A stretch of DNA of 32,390 nucleotides. Origin: an uncultured Pelagibacteraceae bacterium. Its GTDB lineage: Bacteria; Pseudomonadota; Alphaproteobacteria; Pelagibacterales; Pelagibacteraceae. Position 1 is the first letter of the stretch. Each line of letters begins with the position of its first letter. The stretch covers positions 1 to 32,390 of the forward strand of contig CACMJB010000011.1 in the NCBI GenBank assembly GCA_902613915.1. The letters are read 5' to 3'. Shown here piece after piece: positions 20,666-23,634 of the stretch. A program made the position numbers and the translations under genes. The notes under the pieces are model-generated. The model worked only from the letters and a program-made list of their open reading frames with translations, searched no databases and was not told the origin of the DNA.

Positions 20666-21250
20666 ATGACCGATTCTCCATTCATGCCAAAAGCGACTGC
20701 AGTTTGGTTAGTTGAAAATACAACTTTAACATTTAAACAAATTGCTGAATTTTGTAATTTACATGAATTAGAAATCAAAGGAATTGCTGATGGTGATGTT
20801 GCGAGAGGAATAAAAGCTTATAATCCAATTTTAGCAGGCCAACTATCAAGAGAAGAAATAGAGGATTGTTCTAAAAACCCAGAGAAGAGACTAAAATTAG
20901 TAAAAAAAATTGAGGAAATTGAAGTTAAAGAGAGAAAGAGACCTAAGTATACTCCGTTATCAAAAAGACAAGATAGACCGGATGCAATTCTATGGCTTTG
21001 CAAAAATGCTCCTGATTTAACAGACGGACAGATTTCTAAATTAGTAGGCAGTACTAAAGGAACAGTTGCTCTTATAAGAAAGAGAAGTTATTGGAATTTT
21101 TCAAATTTAAAACCTAGAGACCCTGTTATATTAGCATTATGTACTCAAGAAACTTTTCAAAAGGCTTTAGAAAAAGCCAAAAGAAGAGTTGAAAGAGAGA
21201 AAAAAGCTAAGATTAGAGAGGAAAAAAAGGCCCAAGCTGCTTCTCTGTAG
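20666..21250 (+). CDS. DUF1013 protein (TrcR-type putative cell-cycle regulator)
   Basis: A 194-residue protein with the alphaproteobacteria-specific DUF1013 pattern: FMPKATAVWLVENTTLTFKQ at about 6-25, FCNLHELEIKGIADGDVA, then a second helix-turn-helix-like block DRPDAILWLCKNAPDLTDGQ with ISKLVGSTKGTVALIRKRSYWN. The C-terminus is a charged Lys/Arg/Glu helix. As I recall, DUF1013 relatives have been described as a transcription-associated cell-cycle factor (TrcR) co-conserved with GcrA/CtrA; that role here is inferred. It lies between two ribosomal protein genes. Confidence 0.85.
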   Translation: MTDSPFMPKATAVWLVENTTLTFKQIAEFCNLHELEIKGIADGDVARGIKAYNPILAGQLSREEIEDCSKNPEKRLKLVKKIEEIEVKERKRPKYTPLSKRQDRPDAILWLCKNAPDLTDGQISKLVGSTKGTVALIRKRSYWNFSNLKPRDPVILALCTQETFQKALEKAKRRVEREKKAKIREEKKAQAASL

Positions 21251-21291
21251 ACAAATAGATTTTCAAATGTTAACAACCATCAAAATTAACT

Positions 21292-21296
21292 GGAGG
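21292..21296 (+). promoter_or_regulatory. Strong ribosome binding site fixing the AUU start of rpsU
   Basis: GGAGG lies 5 nt before ATT 21302. Such a perfect Shine-Dalgarno is rare in this window. An in-frame stop at 21287-21289 closes the frame just upstream, so translation must begin between 21290 and the body of the protein. Confidence 0.8.
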
Positions 21297-21301
21297 TTTT
21301 T

Positions 21302-21496
21302 ATTAAAATAGACGTTAAAGATAATAATGTAGAACAGGCTATAAGAGTATTAAAGAGAAAGCTTCAGAAAGAAGGTTTTTTCAAAGTAATGAAAATGAAA
21401 AGCACTTATGAAAAACCTTCGGAAAAGAAAAAAAGAGTTCAAACAGAAAATCTTAAAAGAATTAAAAAACTCCAAAAATTAAAAAATAGGTACTAA
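21302..21496 (+). CDS. rpsU: Ribosomal protein bS21 with AUU start codon
   Basis: A 64-residue basic protein reading (M)KIDVKDNNVEQAIRVLKRK followed by FFKVMKMKSTYEKPSEKKKR, unmistakably bS21, the small-subunit protein needed for efficient initiation. Aligned with relatives (start MQVLVRDNNV or similar), residue 1 falls on ATT 21302. No ATG, GTG or TTG exists between the upstream stop (21287) and codon 30 (ATG), far inside the conserved region. GGAGG sits 5 nt upstream. Gene finders restricted to ATG/GTG/TTG will miss it. Followed by a csp gene after 26 bp. AUU starts are known for infC, where they allow IF3-dependent control. Confidence 0.93.
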   Translation: MKIDVKDNNVEQAIRVLKRKLQKEGFFKVMKMKSTYEKPSEKKKRVQTENLKRIKKLQKLKNRY

Positions 21497-21522
21497 AATT
21501 ATTTACAATGAGAGGATTAACT

Positions 21523-21726
21523 ATGCCATCCGGTAAAGTAAAATGGTTTAACGCCAAAAAAGGTTATGGATTTATCACTGATGATAAAACACAAAAAGAT
21601 ATATTTCTTCATGTGTCAGCACTTGAAGAATCTAAACTTAGAGTTTTAAAAGAAGATCAAACTATAATTTACGACATAAAAGAAGAAAAAGATAAACTAC
21701 AAGCTATAAATATTAAAAAAAAATAA
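21523..21726 (+). CDS. Cold-shock domain protein
   Basis: Single CSD that binds single-stranded RNA or DNA. Seen: SGKVKWFNAKKGYGFITDD with RNP1 KGYGFI, and RNP2 DIFLHVS. 67 residues from ATG 21523. An earlier in-frame ATG (21508) would add MRGLT, but its own codons form GAGAGGA (21510-21516), a good ribosome site for 21523, so the later start is preferred. The stop lies 5 bp before the initiator tRNA, so csp and the tRNA are almost certainly on one transcript. Confidence 0.95.
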   Translation: MPSGKVKWFNAKKGYGFITDDKTQKDIFLHVSALEESKLRVLKEDQTIIYDIKEEKDKLQAINIKKK

Positions 21727-21731
21727 TTTAC

Positions 21732-21808
<77 letters not shown>

Positions 21809-21810
21809 AA

Positions 21811-23634
21811 ATGGCAAATACAATTAGAAATATTACAATCATTGCACACGTTGATCATGGAAAGACTACCTTAATTGATAATTTAATGAAACAAAGTGGA
21901 ACTTTTAGAGAGAATGAAAATGTAGAAGAACGTATTATGGACTCAGGAGAGTTAGAAAAAGAGAGAGGAATAACAATCCTAGCTAAACCTACTTCAATAA
22001 ACTGGAAAAACTCTAGAATAAATATTATCGATACTCCAGGTCACAGAGATTTTGCAGCTGAAGTTGAAAGAGTTTTACATATGGCTGATGGAGCTTTATT
22101 ACTAATTGACTCAGCTGAAGGTGTAATGCCACAAACAAAATTTGTATTATCAAAAGCTTTAAAACAAGGTTTAAAGCCTATTGTAGTGATAAATAAACTT
22201 GACAAACAAGATCAAAGAGCAAATGAAGTATTAGACGAAACTTTTGACTTATTTGTAAGTTTAGATGCAAATGAAGAACAATTAGACTTTCCAGTATTAT
22301 ATGCAAGTGGAAGATCAGGCTGGGCTTCTAAAGAAATAGATGGTCCAAGAAAAAATTTGCAACCCTTATTAAATTTAATAATTGACCATGTTAAACCATC
22401 GACTTTTGATAAAACAAAACCATTCGCTATGCTTTCTACACTCCTTTATGCCGACAGTTTTTTAGGAAGAAGCTTGGTAGGAAGAATTGCTCAAGGAACT
22501 GCAAAAGCAAATCAGCAAATTAAAGCAATAGATCTAAGTGGAAAAAAAGTTGATGAAGGAAGACTTACAAAAATATTTAGATATGAAGGAACAAAAAAAG
22601 TTCCTATCGAACAAGGCGAGGCTGGAGATATAGTAATTATTGCAGGATTAGAAAAAGCTAACGTTGCTGATACAATTTGTGATTTAGAAATAAACGATCC
22701 AATTAATGCAACCCCTATTGACCCCCCTACCATGTCAATAACAATTACCGTAAATAGTTCTCCTTTAGCAGGGACGGAAGGGAAAAAATTAACAAGTACT
22801 CAAATTAGGGATCGATTAATTTTGGAAGCTGAAAATAATGTTGGGATCAACTTTGAAGAAAATGAAAATAAAGATGCTTTCGTTATAAGCGGTAGAGGTG
22901 AGTTAATGTTAGAGATTCTTTTAACACAGATGCGAAGAGAGGGTTTCGAAATGACCGTAAGCCCGCCAAAAGTTTTAATTAAAAAAGATGATCAAGGTAA
23001 TAAAATGGAGCCAATCGAAGAAATAACAATGGATTTAGATGAAGAGTTTTCATCAAGAATTATAGACTCTATGAATAGAAGAAAAGGTAAATTAATTGAT
23101 CTTAAAGATACTGGAAAAAATAAAAAAAGATTAATTTTTCATGCACCAACTAGGGGATTAATGGGTTACACAAGTAGGTTTTTAACATTAACAAAAGGTA
23201 CTGGCGTAATAAATAGAATTTTTCACTCTTATGGAGAATACACCGGAGACATGGAGGGAAGAAGAAACGGCGCTTTAATTTCCATGGAAAATGGTAAAGC
23301 AGTTGCCTTTGCTATTTTCAATTTACAAGCTCGTGGTGAAATGTTTGTGACACATAATGATCCAGTATATGAAGGGATGATAGTAGGCCTTTCTTCAAAA
23401 AGTGGTGACTTGGAAATTAATGTTTTAAAAGGGAAAAAACTTACAAATATGAGAACTCAAGGAACTGATGAAAATGTAGTTTTAACACCAGTAAGAAAGA
23501 TGGCTATAGCCGAACAGCTAAGTATGCTTAATACAGATGAAGCTTTAGAGATAACACCAAAATCTTGCAGACTTAGAAAATTAATATTAGATCCTCATGA
23601 AAGAAAAAGGCAATTAAGAGCCAAGGCTTCTTAA
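21811..23634 (+). CDS. typA: Ribosome-associated GTPase BipA/TypA
   Basis: Translational GTPase acting on the 50S subunit in ribosome assembly and stress adaptation. G motifs: AHVDHGKTTL (G1, about 12-21), RGITI (G2), DTPGHRDF (G3), NKLDK (G4). Later EF-G-like domains and the BipA-specific C-terminal (HSYGEYTGDMEGRRNGALIS region, then SMLNTDEALEITPKSCRLRK near the end). 607 residues, normal. The ATG is 2 nt after the tRNA CCA end, so after tRNA processing the mRNA would be nearly leaderless. The stop overlaps the convergent transaldolase stop (TTAA). Confidence 0.97.
   Translation: MANTIRNITIIAHVDHGKTTLIDNLMKQSGTFRENENVEERIMDSGELEKERGITILAKPTSINWKNSRINIIDTPGHRDFAAEVERVLHMADGALLLIDSAEGVMPQTKFVLSKALKQGLKPIVVINKLDKQDQRANEVLDETFDLFVSLDANEEQLDFPVLYASGRSGWASKEIDGPRKNLQPLLNLIIDHVKPSTFDKTKPFAMLSTLLYADSFLGRSLVGRIAQGTAKANQQIKAIDLSGKKVDEGRLTKIFRYEGTKKVPIEQGEAGDIVIIAGLEKANVADTICDLEINDPINATPIDPPTMSITITVNSSPLAGTEGKKLTSTQIRDRLILEAENNVGINFEENENKDAFVISGRGELMLEILLTQMRREGFEMTVSPPKVLIKKDDQGNKMEPIEEITMDLDEEFSSRIIDSMNRRKGKLIDLKDTGKNKKRLIFHAPTRGLMGYTSRFLTLTKGTGVINRIFHSYGEYTGDMEGRRNGALISMENGKAVAFAIFNLQARGEMFVTHNDPVYEGMIVGLSSKSGDLEINVLKGKKLTNMRTQGTDENVVLTPVRKMAIAEQLSMLNTDEALEITPKSCRLRKLILDPHERKRQLRAKAS

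Follow-up and report, generated by a model that had tools for sequence, protein, structure and literature searches.

The closest experimentally established precedent for control of rpsU, the gene of ribosomal protein bS21, is the SD-dependent autoregulation in Flavobacterium, and not a control by IF3. According to the accessible part of that report (PMC9976891), ribosomes lacking bS21 translate rpsU better through its strong Shine–Dalgarno sequence (SD). Like the locus described here, rpsU of Flavobacterium johnsoniae and other Bacteroidota has a strong SD although SDs are scarce in the genome, and the leader of Flavobacterium rpsU is likewise short, with a predicted transcription start 25 nt before the start codon. 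Nevertheless, the SD helices of Bacteroidota rpsU comprise 9–13 bp, while the match here is GGAGGU, 6 nt, which is shorter than an extended SD. A near-cognate start is not among the features described in the accessible part of the report, where the AUU matches refer to anti-SD mutants, and the host here is alphaproteobacterial.

Near-cognate starts have been documented in other genes, as far as the available portions of two articles tell. In E. coli the gene infC starts with ATT, in Streptomyces with ATC (PMC5472188) and in S. aureus with AUA, accompanied by an SD (PMC13009471). Like rpsU it is a translation gene with a near-cognate start, and in the S. aureus case with an SD; however, infC encodes the discriminating factor itself whereas the product of rpsU is bS21. 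IF3 also represses near-cognate starts other than that of infC, for instance sigR (GTC) of Streptomyces (PMC5472188). Where an extended SD precedes a near-cognate start in S. aureus, the yield is ~10% of that from AUG, with ccpN (AUA) reaching up to 30% in rich medium (PMC13009471). S. aureus cvfC1 starts with AUU, and the AUU start of E. coli pcnB appears in a title cited within the same article. In pcnB, cvfC1, ccpN and sigR the near-cognate start restrains the yield, as it would here, and the S. aureus genes have strong SD support. None of the four encodes a ribosomal protein, and the available text of these sources mentions no exchange of start and SD.

The present analysis concerns a window of 32,390 nt, the whole stretch of DNA that was analysed, from an uncultured member of the Pelagibacteraceae. 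No earlier report of a near-cognate rpsU start was found among the papers listed by searches of open-access full texts. SAR11 ranks among the most abundant groups of bacteria, and a conserved AUU in a gene for a ribosomal protein adds to the few near-cognate starts known from nature. Gene finders restricted to ATG, GTG and TTG would presumably miss or truncate this rpsU.

The AUU start in the window and in the family

The rpsU frame of the window (Table 1) matches PF01165 (E=9e-15, 54.5 bits, curated cut-off 27) and TIGR00030 (E=6e-15, 54.8 bits, curated cut-off 28.95), both identifying bS21, and is the sole bS21 match in its assembly, which is 93% complete. Near-identical bS21 is encoded at 80 public loci, nearly all titled Pelagibacteraceae or SAR11, one being labelled Rhodospirillaceae. 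The frame reads CTG GAG GTT TTT ATT AAA ATA GAC around the start, with TTTTT as spacer between SD and ATT. The sequence-only reading had placed the start at an AUU 5 nt after GGAGG and had noted that ATG, GTG and TTG are missing between the upstream stop and codon 30; both statements held when the window was read again, the first such codon in frame being an ATG at codon 30, counted from the ATT.

Table 1. Features at and around rpsU, in window coordinates
Feature	Position	Strand	Basis or remark
trcR (PF06242), upstream gene	20666..21250	+	profile match
predicted -35, TAGACA	21248..21253	+	GACA at this distance in 201/206 contexts; prediction only
predicted extended -10, TGTTAACAA (TGnTA motif; hexamer 21271-21276), 17 nt after GACA	21268..21276	+	conservation
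predicted leader, ~19 nt, holding the SD	21283..21301	+	5' end inferred from promoter motifs
in-frame TAA closing the rpsU frame upstream	21287..21289	+	sequence
SD, GGAGG, 5 nt before ATT	21292..21296	+	sequence, family contexts
ATT initiation codon of rpsU	21302..21304	+	sequence, homologue alignment, family patterns
rpsU (bS21), 64 codons + stop	21302..21496	+	frame, Pfam and NCBIfam profile matches
tRNA-Met(CAT), initiator-type features	21732..21808	+	context only, not part of the rpsU start

In the family of the window, rpsU was detected in 252 of 297 genomes. The pattern GGAGG-N(2-10)-ATH-AAR-RTH-GAN-GTN-AAR, in which the codons after ATH encode K-(I/V)-(D/E)-V-K, matched 306 of 397 family genomes, the reversed control pattern gave none among the matches listed, and the same pattern with ATG, GTG or TTG replacing ATH matched 0/397. 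Since these patterns demand GGAGG, loci missed by them were read as well. Altogether 262 family loci were reduced to 206 distinct contexts by dropping L312 (47 nt upstream) and 55 repeats. Some of the loci are non-random picks: L327-L339 and L457-L459 were chosen because the ATH pattern missed their genomes, while L428 and the picks for L460-L476 came from a search with the bS21 of an AUG locus (query without the first residue). That query tilts the list to its relatives, so the 12 AUG forms in 206 should not be read as a frequency.

The start codon is ATT in 189 of these contexts, ATA in 3, ATC in 1, ACG in 1 and ATG in 12. An SD stands before every one of the 194 near-cognate starts (GGAGG 182, GGGGG 7, AGGAG 5), and no SD motif was found in the upstream stretch searched in any of the 12 ATG contexts, all of which belong to g4, the most-sampled genus of the family besides the window's own and probably Pelagibacter. 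In a subset of 156 contexts, GGAGG lies 4, 5, 6 or 9 nt before the start in 142; among the other 14, nine have GGGGG or GGAG and five, the AUG ones, have no SD. Neither chance nor a sequencing or assembly error accounts for the ATT, given hundreds of family genomes with the same start. The proposed alignment of rpsU starts across SAR11 thus finds AUU kept in 189/206 distinct family contexts. ATG in relatives, named beforehand as what would speak against the AUU, does occur in the family, only where the SD is lost and, among the loci read, never in the window's genus.

Codon 0, the ATT, aligns with the ATG or GTG start of canonical bS21 homologues, and the ATG at the same place in the 12 g4 contexts marks it as the position of initiation. 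While the SD spacer differs between contexts, the position of codon 0 in the protein does not, which is what a start codon should show. Isoleucine codons in the sampled genome are ATT 56%, ATA 34% and ATC 10%, against which ATT at codon 0 in 146/156 contexts, with ATA at codon 2 in 145/156, argues that codon 0 is not merely an isoleucine codon. On the other hand, that ATA is the third codon of the frame, and in 52/206 contexts, the window not among them, a TTG in frame at codon -4 touches or overlaps the SD; initiation might then occur at this AUA or upstream, for example at the TTG in relatives, with the AUU as ordinary isoleucine. A canonical start without its own SD is formally possible in the contexts that have TTG at -4 or, as in L048, L073, L321, L452 and L461, a different canonical codon, one in each, between -2 and -12. 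For the window, no upstream canonical start is present in frame. We regard initiation elsewhere as scarcely credible, because the ATG falls on codon 0 where the SD is lost, because codon 0 is aligned with canonical starts and because the in-frame stop is only one or two codons away from codon 0 in 7/206 contexts; in five of the 206, all near-cognate, a single codon (GTT or TTT) separates the two. Read from the sequence, translation of SAR11 rpsU begins at AUU.

SD scarcity, promoter and neighbourhood

The frequency of SDs was surveyed over 232 kb from the genome of the window (the window and ten 20-kb stretches, GC 0.295), which hold 227 frames of >=100 codons, 225 with a canonical start in the first 40 codons and two without. 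Before the first canonical start of the 225, GGAGG was found for 2, GGAG or GAGG for 14, AGGA or AAGG for 25, and none of these for 184. In the sample, the two full-length genes whose canonical start is preceded by GGAGG are a rhodopsin-type and a DctP-type gene, both with ATG. Among the frames that passed the filter for GGAGG with a near-cognate codon, rpsU alone has no upstream in-frame canonical start; the 12 other hits listed were set aside as they have 1-18 such starts upstream in frame. By eye, the longest run in the window's SD that matches the general consensus UAAGGAGGUGAUC is GGAGGU, 6 nt. The anti-SD motif was not found in the genome's own 16S stretch, which is partly masked.

A TGnTA motif lies upstream of rpsU in 206/206 contexts, preceded at 17-18 nt by GACA in 201. 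The pair was present in 0/616 control stretches and TGnTA alone in 66/616. This promoter prediction is based on conservation, with motifs picked after inspection, and a generic sigma-70 scan did not list an rpsU promoter. The stop codon of trcR, TAG (21248-21250), is part of the predicted -35. From the conserved promoter, the mRNA is predicted to start ~19 nt before the AUU in the window, immediately upstream of the SD; across all contexts the distance is 12-29 nt. An RNA switch in the leader was considered and rejected: the fold is not unusual (z -0.13) and Rfam finds only the tRNA. Such a short leader, with neither an unusual fold nor an Rfam element, means that regulation, if any, would act via the SD, the codon and the initiating 30S.

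A mini-ORF (window 21268-21312) opens with the RTG that precedes the -10 and runs as far as the rpsU start; ribosomes might re-initiate at AUU after translating it. It reaches the rpsU start in 176/206 contexts while 128.7 were expected from shuffled spacers, an excess inflated by the relatedness of the sequences. Translational coupling of this kind is very unlikely, as the mini-ORF start codon lies inside the predicted promoter and would be missing from the short transcript, and as the mini-ORF occurs in two frames, even among same-genus-like contexts, which leaves no conserved peptide. The mini-ORF is probably a by-product of the promoter motif.

Regarding the neighbourhood, g4 keeps the order L31-trcR-rpsU (L066, L427-L456, L477-L496). 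A tblastn comparison of csp/typA (window 21508-23634) with up to 1.8 kb downstream of rpsU at 51 g4 loci gave no match. Of the 123 same-genus-like loci given, in which some genomes occur twice, all 119 with enough sequence encode an initiator-type tRNA-Met(CAT) that follows the rpsU start at a distance of ~430 nt. Its anticodon stem is TCAGG/CCTGA, in which A-U takes the place of the first of three G-C pairs that form the usual initiator signature.

Exchange of start codon and SD within and beyond the family

Only two states were seen in the 206 family contexts, a near-cognate start with an SD or AUG without one, and in this one gene evolution has traded start codon against SD. The exchange was mapped onto a tree built from the adjoining L31-trcR sequence (52 rows, 12 of them AUG; L434 was left out). 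Four changes are needed on this tree, at least 2 of which are forced by well-supported branches, and a single clade for the AUG rows is rejected (AU p 0.011). The ACG + GGAGG locus (L332/L482) groups with two AUG loci lacking an SD. The tree of the rpsU coding sequence alone is weak and gives 3 changes, 1 forced. Supported branches provide only 2 independent pairs, both concordant, which puts significance out of reach. Besides repeated mutation, recombination of the rpsU region has to be reckoned with and could mimic several exchanges. The bS21 of an AUG locus (L328) and that of an ATT locus (L055) differ in one internal residue, so no protein change matching the exchange is seen. Taken as read, the exchange of codon and SD points to selection on the strength of rpsU translation.

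In a second family of the order, the 38 distinct contexts (50 loci) have ATA in 37 and ATC in 1, located 7-8 nt after GGAGG (37) or GGGGG (1); an upstream in-frame ATG lies at -13 or -17 in 3/38. Another 84 alphaproteobacterial loci (81 of about 130 matched genomes, mostly one per family, and 3 from the search that supplied the non-alpha control below) have GTG 39, ATG 17, TTG 12, ATC 6, ATA 6, ATT 2 and CTG 2. Near-cognate starts, defined here by the lack of ATG, GTG and TTG at -2 to +1, therefore number 16/84; an SD-like stretch lies 5-8 nt before every one of them, a weak one in L172. One or two canonical codons without SD lie further upstream in L148, L150, L152, L167, L183 and L198, and the CTG starts are the least sure because of a long upstream frame in L152 and L189. 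No near-cognate start was found at 44 loci of non-alpha Pseudomonadota (of 87 matched genomes), which have ATG 31, GTG 10 and TTG 3. Weak rpsU starts, as predicted from these loci, recur across Alphaproteobacteria and are most consistent in the SAR11 order. AUG with an SD exists in alphaproteobacteria outside the order, e.g., at L125, L174, L204 and L211, so the constraint on codon and SD is not class-wide.

Phages of the group carry bS21 genes of their own. Those of pelagiphages HTVC008M and Aegir start with ATG and that of Mosig with TTG after GGAGG (L273, L274, L275), the host form being AUU. Viral contigs also hold two distant bS21 copies, which stand outside the counts.

Control of bS21 output

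While the position of the start, its conservation and the exchange of codon and SD are read directly from the sequences, we infer that selection acts on bS21 yield. It is likely, though some way from certain, that the near-cognate start and the strong SD form a single initiation module, maintained as a unit, which sets bS21 output. In such a module, the strong SD would recruit the 30S subunit in a genome mostly without SDs, and the poor codon would limit the yield and make initiation depend on SD pairing. Output may be held within bounds by a near-cognate start with SD or by AUG without SD; combinations with both elements strong or both weak were unseen in the contexts read. Against this balanced-module reading stands the small number of exchange events.

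Such a balance may need no sensing at all, the weak codon simply trimming the strong SD to the right dose of bS21. We give this static attenuation nearly an even chance. It explains the exchange with the fewest assumptions, and the near-cognate starts behind extended SDs in S. aureus, with the yield of about a tenth quoted above (PMC13009471, available part), also speak for it. Nevertheless, an SD of medium strength combined with AUG or GUG looks like the simpler solution, yet the extreme pair is kept in 194/206 contexts, and AUU instead of GUG or UUG would be odd for pure trimming.

Coming back to the module of weak codon and strong SD, its dependence on SD pairing could also serve feedback. 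A 30S subunit lacking bS21 would have a freer anti-SD and would be best at reading rpsU. That the SD dependence closes a feedback loop through such subunits is, by analogy with Flavobacterium, a tentative proposal that we hold to be possible and not probable. Slightly more doubtful is the broader suggestion that throughout the SAR11 order, and on several occasions elsewhere in the Alphaproteobacteria, rpsU is a sensor, with a near-cognate start that functions only by strong SD pairing, through which bS21-less 30S subunits make bS21 until all are complete, and that part of one genus dropped the sensor for AUG without SD; the pelagiphage bS21 genes read have canonical starts. The AUG form without SD in g4 shows that SD-based control is dispensable there. 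SAR11 rpsU offers a direct test of whether control of bS21 by SD pairing evolved outside Bacteroidota.

The sequence-only reading had suggested feedback by initiation capacity, pointing to the IF3 autoregulation of infC; in such a loop IF3 would reject the AUU and bS21 synthesis would follow free IF3. AUU, AUA, AUC and ACG are indeed the kind of codon against which IF3 acts, IF3 represses sigR through its GTC start and E. coli infC has ATT (PMC5472188, available part), and IF3 sensitivity of an AUU rpsU is expected. A dedicated loop is nevertheless improbable. By eye, infC in the window's genus has GTG directly after a stop, without SD, at 15/15 loci (of 22 matched genomes), and AUG forms of rpsU are present in the family. 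Nor is bS21 known to affect discrimination by IF3. The 12 g4 contexts, having neither the weak codon nor the SD, imply that no IF3-type loop is indispensable. What stands of that reading is the conserved AUU behind a perfect SD, with signs of selection for restrained initiation; the GTG of infC and the joint loss of codon and SD in those 12 contexts speak against a special tie to IF3. Static tuning, feedback of bS21 through the SD and IF3-linked control are not fully exclusive. In favour of a link to IF3, infC of the second family resembles its rpsU: read by eye, it starts behind GGAG with ATA in 14 and ATC in 1 of 15/15 matched genomes (L214, L217-L224, L227, L230, L233, L239, L240, L242).
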